Positions 8,034 through 38,917 of a stretch of DNA of 39,567 nucleotides are shown piece by piece. The notes beneath the pieces were generated by a model. The model saw only the letters and a list, made by a program, of their open reading frames with translations. It made no database searches and was not told the DNA's origin. Source of the stretch: Chloroflexota bacterium (GTDB lineage: Bacteria > Chloroflexota > UBA11872); assembly GCA_028873795.1 (NCBI GenBank), contig JAPPNP010000035.1, positions 1-39,567 of the forward strand, read 5' to 3'. Every line of letters starts with the position of its first letter. Position 1 is the first letter of the stretch. The position numbers were made by a program, and so were the translations under genes.

Positions 8034-8372
8034 GTCATTCGATCGCCCCTTCCGTCATTCCGAACACCCCTCCTGTCATTCCGAACGCCCCTCCCGTCAT
8101 TCCGAACGCAGAGAGGAATCCAAGGACGCTGCGCCTTTTCCCGGCCCCTTGGATTTCTCGCTCCGCTCGAAATGACAACCATGCCCGGTGGCCCACGCTG
8201 CGTGCAGCGTGGGAGTTCGCACCCGTCGTGCGACCTGATTTACTCAAGGGTCGTTCCAAACACCGTGAGGAATCCAAGGACGCTGCGCCCTTACCCGGCC
8301 CCTTGGATTTCTCGCTCCGCTCGAAATGACAACCATGCCCGGTGGCCCGCGCTGCGTGCAGCGTGGGATTTC
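8034..8372. repeat. Repeat block: tandem half-units plus two long hairpin elements
   Basis: Four GTCATT[C]CGA half-units start at 8034, 8054, 8075 and 8096, a 20-21 bp tandem array. The last runs into a full element (8096-8176), GTCATTCCGAACG...CTCGAAATGAC, whose arms pair over ~30 bp. A GCCCACGCTGCGTGCAGCGT palindrome follows at 8189-8212. A second, left-degenerate hairpin spans 8251-8330, with another palindrome at 8341-8368. Open frames here encode HFERSE-type peptides, which are translations of the repeat and not genes. This accounts for the 490 bp between thiN and the next gene. Confidence 0.8.
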
Positions 8373-8463
8373 GGCGTGGAAAAAGCCCACCTCCGCAAAG
8401 TGCGGTGTAGAATCTTGGGCCGGGGGGCAATGGCGCCCGCTCTGGTGAATCTGGAGGCCGAAT

Positions 8464-8793
8464 ATGGGATCCAGGAAGAAGGTCCTCGTTGGGACCGCAG
8501 TGCTCACTGCCGCCGTCGTCGCGACGCTCTTCGGAATCTGGTTATGGCTGTTCGCGTCGCCCATCCCGCCATCGACCGAGACCGTGTCGATTCCCAACGG
8601 AACCGCGACGATCCATAGTTCCGGGTACTCTGCGGGCGGCTTCGCCGCGGGGGTTGCCGCCATGCTGGTGGGCGTGATCTACGTCAGCGCGGTCGCGGCA
8701 ATCCTCTGGTTCCTGCTCGCGTTGGCCTGGCGAGCCTTCCAGTATCTCGGGCATCGGAACCGGGAATACGAACGGCGGCATACGGGCGTCTGA
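8464..8793 (+). CDS. Small two-helix membrane protein, unknown function
   Basis: A 109-residue protein with a strong GGAGG six bases before its ATG. Helix 1 spans about residues 7-31 (VLVGTAVLTAAVVATLFGIW). It is followed by a polar loop (~32-58, with STETVSIPNGTATI) and helix 2 (~60-92, ending in WFLLALAWRAF). The C-terminus is basic and charged (HRNREYERRH). The layout suggests both ends in the cytoplasm with an external loop. No family is recognised. It is bracketed by near-identical repeat blocks at 8096-8330 and 8907-9137. A TAGAAT box at 8408-8413 may be its -10 element, but no convincing -35 is seen. Confidence 0.6.
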   Translation: MGSRKKVLVGTAVLTAAVVATLFGIWLWLFASPIPPSTETVSIPNGTATIHSSGYSAGGFAAGVAAMLVGVIYVSAVAAILWFLLALAWRAFQYLGHRNREYERRHTGV

Positions 8794-19509: not shown

Positions 19510-20283
19510 CTACGTCTTGGTCGCCACGACGATGAGGCGGTCGCCTTCGCCGTCGTAGGGGTCGAGCGCCCAGCTGCCGTAGGTCTCGATCCGCTCGAAG
19601 CCCGCGCAGCGCAGGGCCAGCTCCAGCTCGAATCGGTGCACATACCGCAGCGGCATGCGCGCGATGCGACGCGTCACCTGGCCGTCGCCACGGAGCACAT
19701 CGTAGATATGCCGCGCGTCGATGCGCTGCGCACCGGGGTCGACTTCCCACGAGACGAAATGAGTCACCGAGATTCCGTCGGCGTCGCGAAAGCCGCCCTG
19801 GGTCCGCAGCACGCCGTCCCACGCCGCCAGGCGGTCGAGCGTGGGATTGAAGACATCCACGGCCAGGACGCCTCCCGACCGGAGCAAGCCGCGCGCGCCT
19901 TCGAGCGTCAGGAGCTGATCGTGCGTCGATTCCAGGTGCAGGAATGAATCGAGGGCGCAGATTACCGCGCCGAACTCGGCGGTCGGCCGCAAATGCCGCA
20001 TGTCGCCTTGCTGCAACTCGATTCCGACGCCGCGCGCATCCGCGCGACGCCGCGCGATGGCCAGGAGCGCCGCAGACGCGTCGACGCCATGCACCTCGAA
20101 TCCAGCCGCGGCCAGCGCGGTGCCCACGCGCGCGGTGCCGCAGGCCAGGTCCATGATCGGCCCACCGGCGCGCTCGGCCAGGTGGACATACATCGGGAGA
20201 TCGTCGTCCCAATCGTCATGCTCGGCGGCGTACAGCTCGGCGATGGCCGCATAGGGATCGCCCTGGGGATCGGACGTACTCAC
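19510..20283 (-). CDS. SAM-dependent class I methyltransferase
   Basis: The 257-residue protein has a Rossmann-type methyltransferase fold. Motif I is PIMDLACGTARVG, the acidic end of beta-2 is VHGVDAS, motif II-like LQQGDMRHL follows and then FGAVICALDSFLHL. The C-terminal ~110 residues (HRFELELALRCAGFERIETYG) match the extended subgroup often annotated as methyltransferase domain 25. The substrate is unknown; small molecules or nucleic acid are both possible. The GTG start overlaps the TGA of the membrane-protein gene, making it the last gene of a coupled operon with the degenerate SbcCD-like pair. Confidence 0.85.
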   Translation of the reverse strand: MSTSDPQGDPYAAIAELYAAEHDDWDDDLPMYVHLAERAGGPIMDLACGTARVGTALAAAGFEVHGVDASAALLAIARRRADARGVGIELQQGDMRHLRPTAEFGAVICALDSFLHLESTHDQLLTLEGARGLLRSGGVLAVDVFNPTLDRLAAWDGVLRTQGGFRDADGISVTHFVSWEVDPGAQRIDARHIYDVLRGDGQVTRRIARMPLRYVHRFELELALRCAGFERIETYGSWALDPYDGEGDRLIVVATKT

Positions 20284-20894
20284 CGGCCGAGAGGCATCCG
20301 CCGAATGAGCAACTCGGCGCTGATGATCACCAGCACGATCAGGATGGCGGCCGCGGGACTGGCGACCCGATTGACGGCCGCCGTGGCCAACGCCACCGCC
20401 CCCGCGGCGATGAAAACCGCTTGTCGCGTGACGATCATCGCCGGCACACGCGGCCCCGAAGCGTCATCGCTGGTTCGCAGCCATGCGCCGATGGCCCAGG
20501 CGAAGAAGAACGCGCCGAATCCCGCCAGGCCAACGAAGGCCAAGACGTTTTCCGTCCGGTCCGGCGAGGTGAAGACGAGCACATAGCCGAGCAAGGCCAG
20601 CGTGACCAGCCCACCCAACCACATGAGACCGCCAGTCGCACGGGTTAAATCACGCGCGGTGCGCGGGCGCGTCGCACGCGGCCGATAGCCGCGAGGGGCC
20701 GGCGCCGCGAGGTCCAGAGCAGGGGGCGAAGCGTCTTTGCCCTTTGCGTCTGGTGGCGCTTCGGCGGCCTTGGCTGCCGGCCGGCCGGCGCTGGGCTTCG
20801 GCTCGGGCTTGGCGGCCTTCGTCGCCGGCCGAGCCTTGCCACTCTTCGCAGCCGGCGGCGTCTCCCGCCGGATGACGAGCGAATCCTCAGCCAA
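20280..20894 (-). CDS. Four-helix membrane protein with a Lys/Ala/Pro-rich N-terminus
   Basis: About 204 residues from a TTG at 20894 that overlaps the stop of the upstream ATPase-like gene. An ATG at 20969 would give 229 residues but a longer overlap, so the start is uncertain. The first ~80 residues are basic and disordered (KSGKARPATKAAKPEPKP). Four hydrophobic helices follow (GLMWLGGLVTLALLGYVLV, FVGLAGFGAFFFAWAIGAWL, AVFIAAGAVALATAAV, AAAILIVLVIISAELLI). No family is recognised. The positively charged cytoplasmic tail could contact DNA or the adjacent coiled-coil protein; this is inference. Confidence 0.65.
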   Translation of the reverse strand: MAEDSLVIRRETPPAAKSGKARPATKAAKPEPKPSAGRPAAKAAEAPPDAKGKDASPPALDLAAPAPRGYRPRATRPRTARDLTRATGGLMWLGGLVTLALLGYVLVFTSPDRTENVLAFVGLAGFGAFFFAWAIGAWLRTSDDASGPRVPAMIVTRQAVFIAAGAVALATAAVNRVASPAAAILIVLVIISAELLIRRMPLGR

Positions 20895-23800
20895 CGGCCT
20901 TGAGCCAGCGAGCAGGCGCCGCCTGGGCCGACGATGGCTCCGACGCTCCCTCGACGATGTTTGCGACATGATCGAAACCGGCGTGCCTCAAGCCGCCCGG
21001 AGCGGCGGTGGCGATGATTTGGGGAAAGTGTCGCTGAATGTCGGCTTGCATCAGCGCATCGAGCAGGGCTTCGATCGCGCCGGCGTCAACGCCCTCGCCG
21101 GCGGCGTCGAGCCACAGGAATGCGGGGGCGTTGGGAGCATCGTGCGGTCGGACGGCGCTGAGAAAGGCGACGCCGACCGCAAGCATCAGCCGACCGCGGG
21201 CGTCGTCGGCGACCTCCCGCAGGGGCGTCCAGGCTTGGCGCTCCTCGTCCCACAGGTGCACGGTCTGGTCCGACGCGATGCGCACGTCCCAATGCCGACC
21301 GCCCGTGATGGGCCCCACGACCTGCCGCAGGGCGGCCTCAGCGGCCGGACGCACACCGCTTGCCAAGGCGTCGAGCGCCTGGCCCATGAGACGCGCCGCG
21401 GCCGCTCGGACGCGGCGCCGGTCGACGATGTCGTCGAGCGCCGCGCGCGACGCTTCGAGATCGACCTCGTGCCGTACGGCGCCCGTACGGAGCTCCAACT
21501 CTCGGATCTGCGCGTCGAATTCGCGCCCTTCGACTCGGGCGCGCTGCATCCTTCGGCGGGCGCCGCCGGGATCCTCCAGGCGGTCGTCGTCCAGGTCGGG
21601 AAAGATGGCCCGAACCTCCGAGACGGTCGGGGCCGCGTCGACGTGGGCGCCCGTCGCCCGCACGGCGCCGGCTAACTCGGCCGTGGACCGGGCGACGCCG
21701 TCGTGCGCGGCGCGGGCCGTCGCAGTCGTTCGGTTTACTTCGGCCGCCGCCCGCGACTCGCCGACGGCGGCAATTGCATCCGCCAGGGCCGCGAGTGCTT
21801 CGAGACGTCCGATGGCGGCGGCGGACGGCTGGCCTCGCGGGAGCCCGGGATCGGTGGCCGCGAGCGAGTCGATGGCTTGCACGATGCCCGGCAGGGCGCT
21901 CTCGGCCGCGCGGAGCTTCCACTGCTCACGCTGACGCGACGCTTCTAGGTCCGATTGCCGGTCCACACGTTCCTGCACCGCATTCAGGTCGCGCTGCAGG
22001 ATGTTGCGAGCTTCGGTCAATGCCCGCTGGTCGTCGGAAAGACCGAGGGATCGGGCCAGCTCGGCCGCGTGACCGTGCGCGCGGCCACTCGCCTCGATCT
22101 GGCTGCGCAGCTCCGCTTCGGCCGCAGCCGCAAGCTCCTCGGCTCCCGAGTCCTCGAGCTCGCGCATCCGGGCCTGCAGTCGCTGCACCTCGCGTTCCGC
22201 GCCGGCAAGCTCCCGCTCGGTGCGCGCGCACTCGGCGTCCAGGTCGCCGGTCGAGACGGCGCTGTCACCGTCGGCAAGACGGCGCATTCTGGCAGTGGCG
22301 CTGTCGCGGAGGATGCGCGCGCGCTCGGCGGACGCGGGGATTTCAAGGCCACGGCGCTCGAGCTCGCGCTCGATCTTGATTTGCTGTCGGTGATTGACGG
22401 CCAGGCGGGCGGCGCGCTGCTCGCCGGTCTGGAGGTCGTGATCGAGCTCCGCCAACTGATCGAGCAGTTCGTCTTCCCGAGCGAGATCGGCGCGCTGGCT
22501 CCATAGCGACCAGGCGCCCGCAGCCGCTCCGGCGAAGACGGTCGCCACGCCCAGCGCCGCCAGCGGCGCGGTGCCGTTGAGTCCGATCGTGGCGACGACT
22601 ATTCCAATGGCGATGCCGATGGCCGCCACGATCAGCCGGCTCTTGCGGCGCTGCGCCTCGATGGCCAGCGACCGCAGACGTTGCTTGACTCGCGTAGTCT
22701 CAAGCAAGCGAGCCTCGGCGTCGATCTCTTCGTCGTCGTGGCCGGATTCGGCGCTGAGGATGTCGCTGAGCCGGCCCCACAGCCGGTGCGCGGTGGGGAG
22801 ATGCTCGTCTTCGTGCGCGCGTTTGCGCAGGGTCCGGGCCCGCTCGGCGGCAGCCTGCGCCTTCGACTTCACCACTTCGGCTTCGACCAGGTCCGAGCGG
22901 GCCCGCCGGAATTCGTGCGCGGCCTGTTGATGACGGTCGCGCTTCACCCGGACGCGGTCGGCCGCCCGTGACGCCGCGACGCCCTCGGTGGCGGCGTTGC
23001 AGGCCCGATCGAGCGCCGCAAGACGCTCGGCGCCGGTTCGCGCCCGCTGCGCCAGAGACGCGAGCTCGCCGAGCCGCGCATCCAATCGCTCGACGCCTTC
23101 CCGAGCGTGCGCGGCTTGCTCGGCGTGATGCGCGTGATCGGCCCACAGCACGGCAAACTCGCGGTAGGCGACCAGGCGATCGCGTTCGTCGAGGAACTGC
23201 CCGCGCAGCACGCGGTATCGGCGCTCGGTCGCATCGGCATCCGCGGCGCGCTCTGATGCCGCAGTGAGGGCGTGCAACGCCTGGCGTACGCGCCAGCGTT
23301 GCAGCGAGCGTTCGAGCCGGTCGACTTCCGTCTCCGTGGCGGCTGCGCGCATCACGGCTTCGGCCAACTCGACCCGGGCTCTCGCCACGGTTTCTTCTTC
23401 CCGGTGAGCGGGGCTGTCGGCGAACTCGGCTTCAAGCTCCTGGATTCGCCGCTCGCCCAGCAGCCGGCGCAGCAGCACCCGAATCTCGGCGGCCGGGGGC
23501 AATTCGGCGCGGGGTTGCGGCAGCACCAGCGCCTGCAGGGTCTCCTGATCGAGTCCCACCATCGCGTCGAGCGCCGCACCTACCTGAGCCCCGCCGCGGA
23601 CTGGCGCCGATCGGGGTCCGCGGTTCACGACAAGCTCCGACTCATCGCCGCCGCTGGCGCGCAGCGTGCGCCGCACGGTGACGGGTCGTCCGCCAACCGC
23701 GAGCTCGCATTCCACCAACGCGCCGTCTGACCTTGCGCGCAGGCCGTCAGCCGGACCGAACAGGCACGTCATCAGCGCCTCGCGCACGACCTGCGCTTGA

Positions 23801-23904
23801 CCTTCCGAAACGGTAATCAGGTGATGGCCCTGCGGCTGGAAGGCCAACTCAACCCGGTGCAAGGCCCCAAGCTCGCGGATCGTCAGCCGCTCCAGGAGAA
23901 TCAC
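20887..23904 (-). CDS. SbcC/YhaN-like coiled-coil protein with degenerate ATPase motifs
   Basis: The 1005-residue protein has the architecture of YhaN-type SMC-like ATPases: an N-terminal half-domain (LERLTIRELGALHRVELAF), long Arg/Glu/Ala-rich coiled coils (~155-420 and ~470-850), two central membrane helices (~424-442, ~447-468) and a C-terminal half-domain. The ATPase motifs are gone. The P-loop position reads HLITVSEGQAQVVREAL, with no GxxxxGK[ST]. The ABC signature position reads REVADDARGRLML. Walker B is FLWLDAAGEGVD, lacking the catalytic Glu, and the H-loop is ATAAP. The frame is uninterrupted. Its GTG overlaps the stop of the nuclease-like gene, the usual SbcD-SbcC arrangement. A structural, non-hydrolysing role is inferred. 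Confidence 0.8.
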   Translation of the reverse strand: MILLERLTIRELGALHRVELAFQPQGHHLITVSEGQAQVVREALMTCLFGPADGLRARSDGALVECELAVGGRPVTVRRTLRASGGDESELVVNRGPRSAPVRGGAQVGAALDAMVGLDQETLQALVLPQPRAELPPAAEIRVLLRRLLGERRIQELEAEFADSPAHREEETVARARVELAEAVMRAAATETEVDRLERSLQRWRVRQALHALTAASERAADADATERRYRVLRGQFLDERDRLVAYREFAVLWADHAHHAEQAAHAREGVERLDARLGELASLAQRARTGAERLAALDRACNAATEGVAASRAADRVRVKRDRHQQAAHEFRRARSDLVEAEVVKSKAQAAAERARTLRKRAHEDEHLPTAHRLWGRLSDILSAESGHDDEEIDAEARLLETTRVKQRLRSLAIEAQRRKSRLIVAAIGIAIGIVVATIGLNGTAPLAALGVATVFAGAAAGAWSLWSQRADLAREDELLDQLAELDHDLQTGEQRAARLAVNHRQQIKIERELERRGLEIPASAERARILRDSATARMRRLADGDSAVSTGDLDAECARTERELAGAEREVQRLQARMRELEDSGAEELAAAAEAELRSQIEASGRAHGHAAELARSLGLSDDQRALTEARNILQRDLNAVQERVDRQSDLEASRQREQWKLRAAESALPGIVQAIDSLAATDPGLPRGQPSAAAIGRLEALAALADAIAAVGESRAAAEVNRTTATARAAHDGVARSTAELAGAVRATGAHVDAAPTVSEVRAIFPDLDDDRLEDPGGARRRMQRARVEGREFDAQIRELELRTGAVRHEVDLEASRAALDDIVDRRRVRAAAARLMGQALDALASGVRPAAEAALRQVVGPITGGRHWDVRIASDQTVHLWDEERQAWTPLREVADDARGRLMLAVGVAFLSAVRPHDAPNAPAFLWLDAAGEGVDAGAIEALLDALMQADIQRHFPQIIATAAPGGLRHAGFDHVANIVEGASEPSSAQAAPARWLKAVG

Positions 23905-25010
23905 GCGGCGTGGCTCCCGGCGCGTCTTCGAAATCCATCAACCACCGCCCGGCGCGCGCGTGCCATCGTGTCGGCGTCGCAGTCCGGCGAGCCGCTCAAC
24001 TGCTCGGCCGCGCGTCGCACTTCCACCATGAACGAGCGCGTCGGCTGCGCCTCGGCCGGCCCGGACGACACGCGCAATTGCGCCAGGTCGACATGCACCA
24101 GCGTTCCCGCGGCGGACGCGCGGCGGCTGAGGTCGCCAACCCGACAGCGATGCCAGAGCTCGCGCGAGAACTCGCCCTCGAATTCAAGGGTCACCAGTGG
24201 CGCCTCGCCAATGAGCGTCGCCAGGCGCTCGCGGATGGCCGCGGCGGGGTCGCGGTCGACGAGATCCGCCGCGCTGAAACTGACGACGACCGGCGCAACG
24301 CCCGCAAGCTCCCGAAACTCGGCGCCGATGACGCCCTCGTGGTCGAGGTCGATGACGGCGAATCCCGACTCGGTGCGCCGCTCGGTCACCGAGGGCGCGG
24401 ACCAACCAGGGCAGATCACAAATGCGTCGCCGAGCCGGCGCTGGCCGGGCTCCGGCCGATTGCCGAGGACGATGACGTCCGCCGCAGTCTCCCGAGACTC
24501 CAGCGCTTCGGCGTCGATCGATAGGGCGATGCGAAGGAAACTGCGGTCAGCGGCAGGTTCGACGTGGTTCATTGCCGAGGCCGACCCAATTTCCAGCGTC
24601 AGTCCCGCGACCTGAACTGTCCGGGTGTGCGCGAGACCACCCGGGCGCACGGCGGCCAAAAGGCCCAACTCTTCGAGGAAGGCGATGCCGGTGCCGTCGG
24701 TCGCCGCCTCGTCCGCCTCGTCGAGGGCGATGCTGACGATCCCAGCCTCGCGCGCGCGCTTCAGACATTGCGACGCAAAGCGGATGTCGTCGAGCCCCGG
24801 TTCCGACCGCGCGAAGAGGCCGCCCGCGATGAGAATGAGGTCAGCGTCGTCGGCGAGTGCCTGATCGACGACGGCGGCGAAGCTGCGCCGGGTGTGGGCC
24901 TGGAAGAGAACGAGCTGCTCGGGGTTTAGCGACGATGGCGCATCCCCGATATGACTGCCCGCGGTGAGCACGGCACGGATAGATTCGGCCGATCCCCGCA
25001 GGAACCGCAT
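23901..25010 (-). CDS. SbcD/YhaO-like metallophosphoesterase homologue lacking its metal ligands
   Basis: The 369-residue protein aligns by eye with SbcD/YhaO (Mre11-type) nucleases, but motif after motif is altered. Family DxHLG is AGSHIG (17-22; only the His remains), GDxxD is GGLFA (63-67), GNHD is around LDEADE (96-101), and GHxH is GNRP (183-186). The flanking framework is kept: VLTAGSHIG, DADLILIAGGLF, and VIVLGNRPEP followed by CPGWSAP where relatives have YPGSxEP. Such a protein should not bind the two metals. The ATG start is six bases after the DUF4130-like gene. The C-terminal ~130 residues correspond to the capping and partner-binding region. Confidence 0.8.
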   Translation of the reverse strand: MRFLRGSAESIRAVLTAGSHIGDAPSSLNPEQLVLFQAHTRRSFAAVVDQALADDADLILIAGGLFARSEPGLDDIRFASQCLKRAREAGIVSIALDEADEAATDGTGIAFLEELGLLAAVRPGGLAHTRTVQVAGLTLEIGSASAMNHVEPAADRSFLRIALSIDAEALESRETAADVIVLGNRPEPGQRRLGDAFVICPGWSAPSVTERRTESGFAVIDLDHEGVIGAEFRELAGVAPVVVSFSAADLVDRDPAAAIRERLATLIGEAPLVTLEFEGEFSRELWHRCRVGDLSRRASAAGTLVHVDLAQLRVSSGPAEAQPTRSFMVEVRRAAEQLSGSPDCDADTMARARRAVVDGFRRRAGSHAA

Positions 25011-25016
25011 ACGCAG

Positions 25017-25622
25017 CTACGCCATCCCCTGCCTCCCAGGTGCGGCGGCAAAATGCGCCTGACTTGACAGAATATCACCGCCCGAAGGCGCCGACCAGAT
25101 TGAACGACCCGTGCTCCCGCGGCCGGGCGCCAGCTTCAGGCTGATGCCGCATCCGTCCTGCACATAGGTGCGCTGGCCGTCCCGGATCACGAGCGTGTGG
25201 CCGCGCCAGCGGCGTCGAAAGTGCCGCAGCACCAGGTCGACAACCGGGAATTGGAAGTGCCACTCGGCCACGAGCTGCCGCGGACCCGTCCCGCGCCTGA
25301 ATCGCAAATCCCGGCGCGCGACGTGGACCTCGCGATAGACCTGATGCCCCCAACTCAGGGCCAACTGCGCCTCACGCGAACTGCGACCGAGCACGTAGGC
25401 GGCCCCATGCTCCAGCACCTGTCCGGCCACTTCACGCAACACGCGATCGCGGTCGGGCGCGGGGTGACGCAACGCGTAGCCGTAAAGGCGCTCGAGCCGG
25501 GCCATGCGCCGGCGGTCGCGCCGCACCGCCGTCAGGCGAGACCGCACCACGTCCGGCCCGCCACCTCGTTCCTGGGCCACCTGCTCCACGAGAGCGACGA
25601 ATGCATCGGGCAATCGGTTCAT
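25017..25622 (-). CDS. DUF4130/TIGR03915-like DNA-metabolism protein
   Basis: The 201-residue protein starts at an ATG with GGAGG five bases upstream, which rules out the longer frame. The stretch SWGHQVYREVHVARRDLRFR resembles the V-x-rEahrmkgfvRF block of DUF4130 proteins. PVVDLVLRHFRRRW, then LVIRDGQRTYVQDG resembles the family's P-x4-L-x2-F-x2-R and I-x-D-x2-R-x5-DG ending. DUF4130 proteins usually sit beside a radical-SAM partner and are linked to putative DNA repair or modification; no such partner is seen here. It heads the operon containing the degenerate SbcDC pair. The C-terminal ~40 residues look disordered. The match is by eye. Confidence 0.55.
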   Translation of the reverse strand: MNRLPDAFVALVEQVAQERGGGPDVVRSRLTAVRRDRRRMARLERLYGYALRHPAPDRDRVLREVAGQVLEHGAAYVLGRSSREAQLALSWGHQVYREVHVARRDLRFRRGTGPRQLVAEWHFQFPVVDLVLRHFRRRWRGHTLVIRDGQRTYVQDGCGISLKLAPGRGSTGRSIWSAPSGGDILSSQAHFAAAPGRQGMA

Positions 25623-25821: not shown

Positions 25822-27063
25822 TCATCCGAGCACCGCATCGCGCCAGGCGTAGCGACTCGCGCTCATTCGGGCTTCGCTCACGAGCAGCGTGGCGGGCGCG
25901 AGCACGGCGTCCCCAAATCGCCGCCGAATCTGATCCTGCGCCTCATCGAGCCGCCGTCGCTCGCGCGTCTCCGGCGGCCGCAACGGCAACTGGCAGTAGT
26001 CAAAACCTTCGAGCGCCGAGGCGTGAACCCCGACGAGCCGATAGACGTCGCCGATTCGCGCCACGCGCAGGAACAGATCGCGGGCCAGGGCGAAGATGGC
26101 AGCGCCGATATCCACGGCCGCCGGGACCGTGGTCTGGCGCGTGATGGTGCGAAAGTCGGCGTAGCGCACCTTGACGCTGATGGTGCGGGCGCGAAGCTGC
26201 TTGGCGCGCAGCCGTTGGCCCACGTGTTCCGCCAGTTGCTGCAGGTAGTCCACCACGATCGCCCCGTCGTCCACATCGCGAGCGAAGGTGACCTCGTTGC
26301 CCACCGAGCGCCGTCGCGGCGAGGGAATGACCGCCCGCGGGTCGATCCCGCGCGAGCGCGCGGCGGCCTGTGCGACGGCGCCGCCGAATCCGGCGTGGAC
26401 CCGCTCAGGGGCGATGCGCGCTAGGTCGCCGACGGTGGTGACGCCGTGCCGCCCGAGCCTGGCCGCGGTCTTGGGCCCGATGCCCCAGACCATGCGTACG
26501 GGAAGAGGGTCGAGAAACGCCGTTTCCGTGCCGGGAGCAATGACGCGGGACCCGTCGGGCTTGGCGACCTGGGAGGCGATCTTGGCGACGGACTTGGAGG
26601 TGGCCACGCCGACGGAGATCGGGAGGTCTTCCTGTTCGCGCACGGTCGCGCGCAGGTGGTCCGCGATCTCGGCGGGCGCGCCGTAGCGGCGCTCGCAGCC
26701 GGTGACGTCGAGAAACGCTTCATCCAGCGACAACGGCTCGACGAGCGGCGTGTAGACGCGAAACAGGTCCATCACCCGGCTCGACACCTCGGCATAGAGC
26801 GACATGCGCCCGGGGAGGAACTCGGCCTGGGGGCAGAGGCGAGCGGCCTGGCGCGAGGGCATCGCTGACCGCACGCCGAACGCCCGCGCTTCATATGAGG
26901 CTGCCGTGACGACGCCGCGTCCGTCGCGCGACCCGCCGACGACTACCGGCTTGCCGCGCAGTTCCGGCCGCTCACGCTGCTCGACGGCGGCGTAGAAGGC
27001 GTCCGTGTCGGCGTGAATGACCACCCGGTGTCCGTACCAGGCGGCTGAGCCGAGATTCTGCAT
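25822..27063 (-). CDS. dinB: DNA polymerase IV (Y-family)
   Basis: The 413-residue translesion polymerase copies past lesions. The catalytic carboxylates are D19/D21 in VIHADTDAFYAAVEQ and D114/E115 in LSLDEAFLDVTG. The finger block ASYEARAFGVRSAMPS, the palm/thumb stretch ISVGVATSKSVAKIAS and the helix-hairpin-helix region MVWGIGPKTAARLGRHGV are intact. The little-finger domain runs from ~245 to ~360. It lacks an obvious C-terminal clamp motif. The ATG at 27063 follows a strong promoter carrying CGAAC repeats. It lies just downstream of lexA on the same strand, which fits SOS control. Confidence 0.94.
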   Translation of the reverse strand: MQNLGSAAWYGHRVVIHADTDAFYAAVEQRERPELRGKPVVVGGSRDGRGVVTAASYEARAFGVRSAMPSRQAARLCPQAEFLPGRMSLYAEVSSRVMDLFRVYTPLVEPLSLDEAFLDVTGCERRYGAPAEIADHLRATVREQEDLPISVGVATSKSVAKIASQVAKPDGSRVIAPGTETAFLDPLPVRMVWGIGPKTAARLGRHGVTTVGDLARIAPERVHAGFGGAVAQAAARSRGIDPRAVIPSPRRRSVGNEVTFARDVDDGAIVVDYLQQLAEHVGQRLRAKQLRARTISVKVRYADFRTITRQTTVPAAVDIGAAIFALARDLFLRVARIGDVYRLVGVHASALEGFDYCQLPLRPPETRERRRLDEAQDQIRRRFGDAVLAPATLLVSEARMSASRYAWRDAVLG

Positions 27064-27093: not shown

Positions 27094-27131
27094 ACAATAC
27101 CAAACAATTACCGAACGAACAAATAGCGAAC
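27094..27131 (-). promoter_or_regulatory. dinB promoter with CGAAC repeats (candidate LexA site)
   Basis: On the minus strand TTGTTC (27117-27122) and TATTGT (27094-27099) are 17 bp apart. That would put the start of transcription ~24 bases before dinB. Three CGAAC half-sites (plus-strand view) lie at 27112-27116, 27116-27120 and 27127-27131, overlapping and flanking the -35. They are direct, not the inverted CGAAC-N4-GTTCG of Bacillus LexA, so operator function is a hypothesis. Confidence 0.55.
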
Positions 27132-27430: not shown

Positions 27431-28030
27431 CTACAGGCTCCGCAGGATGGCGACGGCGTGTCCGCGTACGCGGACGTCGCGGGCGTAGATGGGCTCGAAG
27501 TCGGCGTTGGCGGGTTGCAGGCGCACCTGCCCGTTCTCGCGGAAGAGGCGCTTGAGCGTGGCGCTGCCGTCTTCCAGCATCGCGACGGCAATCTGCCCGT
27601 CCCGCACGGTCTCCGCGGGCGCGACGATGACCAGGTCGCCGTCGCAGATGTGGTCGTCGATCATGCTGTCGCCGCGCACGCGCAGCGCATAGGTGTCGCT
27701 GGCGGGCACGAGGCCGGAGGCGACCGGCACGGTGTCGATGCGCTCTTCGTAGGCGTCGATCGGCAGGCCGGCGGCGATCTCGCCGATGATCGGCACGTGG
27801 ACCACGCCGGCGTCGGCGCCGTTATCAAGGATCTCGATGCCGTGCGACTGGCCGGTGCGCCGGATGTAGCCCTTGCGCTCCAGGGCGTCCAGGTGCTGTT
27901 GCACGGTGGCCGGCGCGAGCCCGACGATGCCGCCGACCTCGCGGACACTCGGCGTGTAGCCCTCGTCGCGCACGAAATGCTCGATGGTGACCAGCACGCG
28001 ATGCTGGCGTTGGGTCAGCGGGTCGCCCAT
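27431..28030 (-). CDS. lexA: LexA SOS repressor
   Basis: The 199-residue repressor has a winged-HTH (PLTQRQHRVLVTIEHFV, then TPSVREVGGIVGLAPATVQ; residues ~1-60) and an S24-type autoprotease domain. The self-cleavage site is A87-G88 (EIAAGLP), the nucleophile S122 (VRGDSMIDD) and the general base K160 (ATLKRLF). Start MGDPLTQRQ at 28030 has GGAGG nine bases upstream; the in-frame ATG three codons earlier abuts that GGAGG and cannot use it. It is transcribed toward dinB. A CGAACG motif lies between the -35 and -10 of its own promoter, compatible with autoregulation. Confidence 0.95.
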   Translation of the reverse strand: MGDPLTQRQHRVLVTIEHFVRDEGYTPSVREVGGIVGLAPATVQQHLDALERKGYIRRTGQSHGIEILDNGADAGVVHVPIIGEIAAGLPIDAYEERIDTVPVASGLVPASDTYALRVRGDSMIDDHICDGDLVIVAPAETVRDGQIAVAMLEDGSATLKRLFRENGQVRLQPANADFEPIYARDVRVRGHAVAILRSL

Positions 28031-28101: not shown

Positions 28102-28131
28102 AAGCTACCAGACAGAATGCGAACGCGTCAA
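28102..28131 (-). promoter_or_regulatory. lexA promoter with internal CGTTCG
   Basis: Minus-strand TTGACG (28126-28131) and TAGCTT (28102-28107), 18 bp apart. CGTTCG (28120-28125) abuts the -35 inside the spacer. The same pentamer family is found in the dinB promoter. The -10 is a weak match. Confidence 0.5.
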
Positions 28132-37382: not shown

Positions 37383-37631
37383 CTAGTCGTGAGTCCATGC
37401 GCACTCGCCGGGCCAGCCATCGAGGTCGGCGTCAATCCCGGCGGCATCGCTGTAGCCCACGCGGTAGCGGTGGGCAATGTCCTCGGCGTCCTTGCGGGCG
37501 AGGTATGCGGCAGCGGCTTCACCCAGCACCGCGGCGCGGAGGCCCCGCTGTCGCACCTCGGGATGCGCGTCGAGACGCTTCAGGAGCGCCTCGTCGAAGG
37601 TGACGTGAACGGATTTCAGAGGCAATTGCAC
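37383..37631 (-). CDS. RHH-type antitoxin, copy 1
   Basis: About 82 residues from a GTG at 37631 (TTG at 37625 is an alternative). The body (SVHVTFDEALLKRLDAHPEV, AAAAYLARKDAEDIAHRYR, GIDADLDGWPGECAW) closely matches copy 2. At the position of copy 2's ATG start this copy has CTG, so initiation must shift upstream or has been lost. The N-terminal half is a ribbon-helix-helix DNA-binding domain and the C-terminal half should wrap the MazF partner. Its own toxin is truncated, so it may act as an orphan that neutralises copy 2. Confidence 0.6.
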   Translation of the reverse strand: MQLPLKSVHVTFDEALLKRLDAHPEVRQRGLRAAVLGEAAAAYLARKDAEDIAHRYRVGYSDAAGIDADLDGWPGECAWTHD

Positions 37632-38360: not shown

Positions 38361-38699
38361 TCAGGCGCCGCCCGGGGCGGTTGCCAGGGCGCGGCCGCCC
38401 AGGCGCATTTTTTTTGGGCTGAGCGAGCCGACGTAGCGGTGGAGTTGGCGTTGCTCGACGGTCTGGACGTGGTCGAGGTTGATGGCGGAGTCGTGGCGCA
38501 GGCCTTCGTCCGGGCCTACGACGACCTCGCTCGGCAGGCCGCGGATGGTGGACGTGATGGGGGCGACCATCGCGGTGTGCAGCAGCGGGAGCACTTCCTG
38601 GCGGGTGAGAACCACGACCGGCCGGCGCTTGTCGGGCGACTTGAATCCGTAGTGCCAGATCTCGCCGCGACGCGGTCCGGCGTCTAGTCCTCCGGCCAT
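38361..38699 (-). CDS. mazF: MazF-like endoribonuclease toxin, copy 2 (intact)
   Basis: A 112-residue PemK/MazF-family toxin predicted to cleave mRNA when free of antitoxin. The fold is complete: RRGEIWHYGFKSPDKRRPVVVLTRQ, then HTAMVAPITSTIRGLPSEV and SAINLDHVQTVEQRQLHRYV, ending SLSPKKM. The ATG lies inside the end of the antitoxin gene, with a 16-bp overlap typical of such modules. An A8 run (38407-38414 as T8 on the plus strand) within the SPKKM codons is prone to slippage, but only affects the last ~15 residues. Confidence 0.85.
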   Translation of the reverse strand: MAGGLDAGPRRGEIWHYGFKSPDKRRPVVVLTRQEVLPLLHTAMVAPITSTIRGLPSEVVVGPDEGLRHDSAINLDHVQTVEQRQLHRYVGSLSPKKMRLGGRALATAPGGA

Positions 38700-38917
38700 G
38701 CGCCCTCGCCGGGCCAGCCCTCGAGGTCGGCGTCGAGCCCGGCGGCGTTGCCGTAGCCCGTGCGGTAGCGGTGGGCGATGTCCTCGGCGTCCTTGCGGGC
38801 CAGGTAGGCGGCCGCGGCTTCTCGCAGCACGGCCGAGCGACCGCGCTCTCGCACGGCGGGATGCGCGTCGAGCCGCTCCAGGAGCGCCTCGTCGAATGTG
38901 ATTTGTATAGGTTTCAT
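38684..38917 (-). CDS. RHH-type antitoxin, copy 2
   Basis: The 77-residue protein begins MKPIQITFDEALLERLDAHP, a ribbon-helix-helix N-terminus whose first strand contacts operator DNA. It continues SAVLREAAAAYLARKDAEDI and ends with the acidic GLDADLEGWPGEGAWPED, the likely toxin-wrapping tail. It is the first gene of the module and overlaps the mazF start. Palindromes at 38916-38932 over and upstream of its start are the probable autoregulatory operator. Confidence 0.85.
   Translation of the reverse strand: MKPIQITFDEALLERLDAHPAVRERGRSAVLREAAAAYLARKDAEDIAHRYRTGYGNAAGLDADLEGWPGEGAWPED

Follow-up and report, generated by a model that had tools for sequence, protein, structure and literature searches.

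A stepwise degenerate Mre11-Rad50 lineage beside lexA and dinB in Chloroflexota as a candidate membrane-anchored scaffold

On the evidence of its motifs and phylogeny, the adjacent MPE and AAA genes of a Chloroflexota locus are a degenerate form of a third Mre11-Rad50 lineage, which is intact in families f3 and f4, partly dead in f2 and fully dead in f1, the family to which the analysed DNA belongs. The window is the whole analysed stretch of 39,567 nucleotides and is a single contig (C24) of a 3.18 Mb genome (G000); the genomes sampled from its class are grouped into five families, f1 to f5. We regard the case as evenly balanced that the product of the locus is a pseudo-Mre11-Rad50 complex anchored in the membrane, an ATP-independent and non-nucleolytic scaffold that in f1 would probably be co-expressed with translesion synthesis. 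A scaffold role instead of DNA cutting is probable because all catalytic motifs are lost, selection persists and membrane parts have been gained.

The genes of the locus are all on the reverse strand, in the order lexA (27431-28030; TIGR00498, 188 bits), dinB for DNA polymerase IV (25822-27063; IMS and IMS_C domains, NCBIfam NF003015, 393 bits), a DUF4130-like gene (25017-25622, 201 aa), MPE for a Mre11/SbcD-like pseudo-nuclease (23901-25010, 369 aa), AAA for a Rad50/SbcC-like pseudo-ATPase (20887-23904, 1005 aa), TM for a protein with a basic N-terminal tail and four hydrophobic helices (20280-20894, TTG start) and MT for a class I SAM methyltransferase with an intact domain (19510-20283; Methyltransf_25, 61 bits). 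The dinB gene is located 199 bases upstream of the DUF4130-like gene, which is separated from MPE by 6 bases, and the MPE/AAA, AAA/TM and TM/MT boundaries overlap by 4, 8 and 4 bases, respectively. The gene coordinates thus bear out the first-pass annotation, which had described five same-strand genes joined by overlaps of 4-8 bases or a 6-base gap, directly downstream of dinB and lexA and including a methyltransferase. The TTG start of TM and its 8-base overlap with AAA recur in L032, L034 and L050. The tight DUF4130-MPE gap is specific to the genus, with 132-134 bases at this position in the sister genus. Elsewhere in the window, two similar small open reading frames of ribbon-helix-helix antitoxin-like type are found about 1 kb apart (37383-37631 and 38684-38917).

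Pfam and NCBIfam are almost silent on MPE, AAA and TM as single sequences, and family profiles are therefore required for their identification. The single MPE sequence matches Mre11 models weakly, a 13-sequence profile of the MPE family matches Mre11 structures with an E-value of 4e-05, and the AAA family profile matches Rad50 of T. maritima with an E-value of 3e-04. When aligned to intact relatives with hhalign, the two profiles give probabilities of 99.3% and 99.6% over nearly the full length. All eight metal-ligand columns of MPE (the Asp, His and Asn ligands of the nuclease) are lost across the 18 sequences of f1, and the same columns are intact in f3 and f4. In AAA, all 18 sequences have a deletion of the Walker A (P-loop) lysine and Ala or Gln in place of the Walker B glutamate, and the ABC signature motif is lost; the Walker B acid mostly stays D/E. 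The earlier labels of pseudo-nuclease and pseudo-ATPase both hold for the 18 members of f1. The CxxC motif of the zinc hook is absent from AAA, as it is from most intact relatives. AlphaFold models of MPE and AAA built from two-sequence input (the window and L031) have pLDDT values of 39 and 44 and are too poor to use.

The catalytic motifs are intact in the f3 and f4 relatives, with DNH, GDxFD, GNHD and GHVH in MPE and NEAGKST, SGGTQ and LDEP in AAA. The four pairs of f2, a family sampled through five genomes, retain the P-loop lysine and Ser/Thr (4/4), and their signature and most of their metal ligands are gone. In the trees, f1, f2 and f3/f4 form one clade, with support of 100/99 for MPE and 96/90 for the AAA heads, and pairs of the YhaO/YhaN type and of the Mre11/Rad50 type branch apart from it in supported clades. 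Both of these types are also present as one intact pair each in the window's genome (L079, L080), so that the degenerate pair is its third copy, a status that may have let it drift. The pair is not a dead copy of either YhaO/YhaN or classical Mre11-Rad50. The initial description of a degenerate SbcDC pair stands as to degeneracy and is refined as to origin, with motif table and tree together pointing to a third Mre11-Rad50 lineage that died in steps. When 400 Chloroflexota genomes are scanned with the MPE profile, all full-length matches fall in f1.

The locus has two predicted membrane parts. A hydrophobic segment midway along the AAA coiled coil, likely a transmembrane hairpin by its hydropathy, spans residues 424-468 (22501-22635, reverse strand); it is found in all f1 AAA proteins and is absent at this place from the intact AAA proteins of f3 and f4, and the AAA protein of one f2 member (L059) has two such segments. 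Among 301 Chloroflexota, each of the 18 sampled f1 genomes and all five f2 genomes has a single strong hit to the TM profile, and outside these families, including in genomes with intact pairs, hits are at most marginal. TM is thus essentially confined to f1 and f2, and its appearance coincides with degeneration; it directly follows AAA wherever the contig permits. The membrane anchoring proposed at first is supported in that a membrane component is present, and is extended to a double arrangement of a hydrophobic segment in the AAA coil and the separate TM protein. One TM protein of the sister genus (G018, L046 4682-6289) has a called length of 535 aa, including a long, repetitive Ala/Pro-rich N-terminal extension that may be partly an artefact of the start call.

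Conservation within AAA is highest on the two sides of this hairpin. The top window (0.66 against a mean of 0.30) is the motif RTLRKRAHEDEHLPTAHRLW at residues 353-377 (22774-22848, reverse strand), and the second highest (0.65) is the motif P..AERARILRDSATARMRRLADGD at residues 523-547 (22264-22338, reverse strand). Both peaks lie near the 99.9% level obtained by shuffling the columns (0.653), and average AAA identity between the two genera is about 30%. As regular expressions, both motifs are found only in f1, though they are missing from some f1 sequences. These peaks are the best hint from sequence that the function of AAA has moved from the heads to the membrane-proximal part of the coil.

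The association of the five genes is not unique to this contig, and the refuting condition set at first, that they be scattered in relatives, is not borne out. The five-gene order is found in all six sampled genomes of the genus, including L050, where an intact DUF4130 frame was recovered by translation, and in at least eight of the 13 genomes of the sister genus, with three more cut by contig ends but fitting; the relatives include metagenome-assembled genomes, and gene calling relied on a simple codon model. The entire block of about 19 kb from a GH15-like to a holB-like gene is syntenic throughout, and recurrence is therefore weak evidence for function. More informative are the breaks. The upstream side differs in the sister family f2, where DUF4130 is absent at the locus and MPE-AAA-TM-MT-aminotransferase is retained (most clearly in L059 and L061; L051 lacks a called MT). 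DUF4130 and dinB are also missing from the locus in G006 and G018 of the sister genus, which nevertheless have MPE, AAA, TM and MT side by side, and no relative of DUF4130 was found elsewhere in these two genomes. In G018, whose genome is a single contig, the distance from MPE-AAA-TM-MT-GNAT is about 1.17 Mb to lexA and about 1.26 Mb to dinB. The proposed five-gene unit accordingly recurs in the f1 genera and does not hold as a robust unit; the core is the four genes MPE-AAA-TM-MT, to which, by this comparison of gene orders, DUF4130 and the SOS context are a later attachment. MT and the adjacent aminotransferase could be bystanders.

The attached DUF4130-like gene passes the gathering score of Pfam PF13566 (31.6 against 27 bits) and falls below the cut-off of TIGR03915, a putative DNA repair protein (31.1 against 112.25 bits). 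Its first description as a DNA-repair-family partner is supported. DUF4130 proteins have been described as predicted enzymes related to mutagenesis, with links to uracil glycosylases and SplB-like radical SAM proteins (PMC3765255); unlike these, the window gene is not fused to a glycosylase and has no adjacent radical SAM gene. The predicted mutagenesis role fits the dinB neighbourhood. Two tandem LexA-type boxes (GTTCGNNNNTTGTYYGGTA, with the look of a direct repeat) precede dinB (27098-27131, reverse strand), a further GTTCGNNNNTTGTYYGGTA box precedes lexA (28106-28124, reverse strand), and related boxes lie upstream of both genes in both genera. In the window's genome the same box, found at C35:140604, C64:71503 and C75:105339 (L095, L096, L100), also precedes the intact Mre11-Rad50 pair, an imuA-imuB-like locus and a Rv2578c-like radical SAM gene, which belong to a small putative SOS regulon. 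The genomes of f1 have 4-10 LexA-type sites each (none in G018), compared to 0-1 in the reversed control. In G018 (L141), lexA is kept at about 8181-8774, the box is unmatched genome-wide at one mismatch, and lexA, dinB and the MPE operon are dispersed. Most members of the sister genus have a TPR protein gene between lexA and dinB, 13 bases after lexA in L037 (11444-12151); the window's genus lacks it.

The SOS association is thus positional, with boxes before lexA and dinB and none found before DUF4130 or MPE; as no terminator is predicted between dinB and DUF4130 in the window, co-expression with dinB would be plausible. The link is not obligatory, since in f2 and G018 the unit is located apart from lexA and dinB. 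This retention of MPE-AAA-TM-MT apart from lexA, dinB and DUF4130, combined with the lack of a box in front of DUF4130 and MPE, would also suit a housekeeping membrane organiser unrelated to DNA damage, for which lexA-dinB-DUF4130 is merely an inherited neighbour. We consider such an organiser unlikely, though it is the alternative to be taken most seriously, as most f1 units follow dinB-DUF4130 on the same strand with no terminator intervening in the window, and in the sister genus dinB and DUF4130 are separated by 63 bases.

Regulation of live proteins by their dead paralogues is common, and the degenerate proteins could act as a decoy, with MPE, AAA or both mixing or competing with the two intact pairs to restrain nuclease activity during translesion synthesis. 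The coexistence of these pairs in one genome and the LexA-type box of the Mre11/Rad50 pair are in keeping with such regulation, which is nevertheless improbable: the dead pair is distant from both intact pairs in the trees, making mixed dimers unlikely, conservation peaks at the membrane segment and away from the head, and the TM partner is left unexplained. The proteins might still be enzymes with re-invented active sites, given that the Walker B D/E and PAF.WL remain conserved in the heads, but this is very improbable when the Mre11 ligand and P-loop columns are unconstrained or changed throughout the family and the Walker A lysine is not substituted but deleted. Within the genus, in pairs with unsaturated synonymous divergence, dN/dS is 0.18-0.24 for MPE and AAA, 0.25 for TM and 0.21 for MT, compared to 0.13 for DUF4130 and dinB and 0.05-0.08 for the aminotransferase and lexA, and frames are open in every family copy except those cut by a contig end (G017, G012). 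As judged by a dN/dS of about 0.2, the genes are under purifying selection. Decay of a repair operon into a remnant, which the loss of all catalytic motifs and an evolution faster than that of lexA or the aminotransferase might suggest, is rejected as scarcely credible on these dN/dS values, with all uninterrupted copies full-length, coupled overlaps retained and new conserved motifs present.

The membrane-anchored scaffold can be set out as a series of proposed steps. A third pair, redundant with two intact ones, would first have lost its nuclease centre and ABC signature, as in f2, and next, in f1, its P-loop and Walker B glutamate, while acquiring a four-helix membrane protein as its dedicated partner. 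The heads, though dead, would probably still assemble, as shape-determining residues remain, and the coiled coil would be inserted into the membrane through its transmembrane segment. The complex would then serve as an ATP-independent scaffold that keeps repair proteins or DNA at the membrane, and one of its components or a partner would be modified by the methyltransferase. In f1, where the unit lies behind lexA-dinB-DUF4130, read-through from the dinB promoter would probably allow co-expression with translesion synthesis after damage. A broader and more tentative proposal, which we hold to be possible though somewhat short of an even chance, is that the stepwise loss of all catalysis turned Mre11-Rad50 into a structural complex that is anchored in the membrane, works without ATP, has a new functional centre at the coil apex and is wired into the SOS locus of a bacterial family. 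Dead paralogues of SMC/Rad50-type machines reveal the capacities of such machines without ATP or nuclease activity. As intact, half-dead and dead forms survive in sister families, the order of losses is both readable and testable, with nuclease and signature going first and the P-loop last, in step with the new membrane partner. If true, the proposal would describe a bacterial pseudo-Mre11-Rad50 complex at the membrane tied to translesion synthesis, and neither such a complex nor a pseudo-Mre11 or pseudo-SbcCD was found described in open-licence papers.

Several known systems share parts of this architecture. Lamassu LmuB, an SMC-like defence ATPase, is the best PADLOC hit of an intact f3 AAA relative (72.6 bits); membership in Lamassu was rejected for the window pair, which has no PADLOC hit and no LmuA or LmuC in sight, the tested neighbours matching methyltransferase models only. 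YhaO-YhaN (SbcE) of Bacillus likewise combines a metallophosphoesterase with a coiled-coil ATPase, and the YhaN-type protein of these Chloroflexota (L062) has a central transmembrane-like segment as does the window AAA, but pairs of this type are intact and form a separate branch, and the window's genome has its own intact one. YhaO/YhaN is reported to belong to the LexA regulon of B. pumilus (PMC3896406), so SOS-linked Mre11-Rad50-like pairs are of a known kind and the new part here is a fully dead pair. With Mre11-Rad50 and SbcD-SbcC, the window locus shares the adjacency of a metallophosphoesterase and a long coiled-coil ABC-type ATPase, as well as homology to the solved Mre11 and Rad50 structures; it differs from them in having lost the metal ligands, P-loop, signature and catalytic glutamate, and in having a transmembrane segment in the coil and a dedicated membrane protein.
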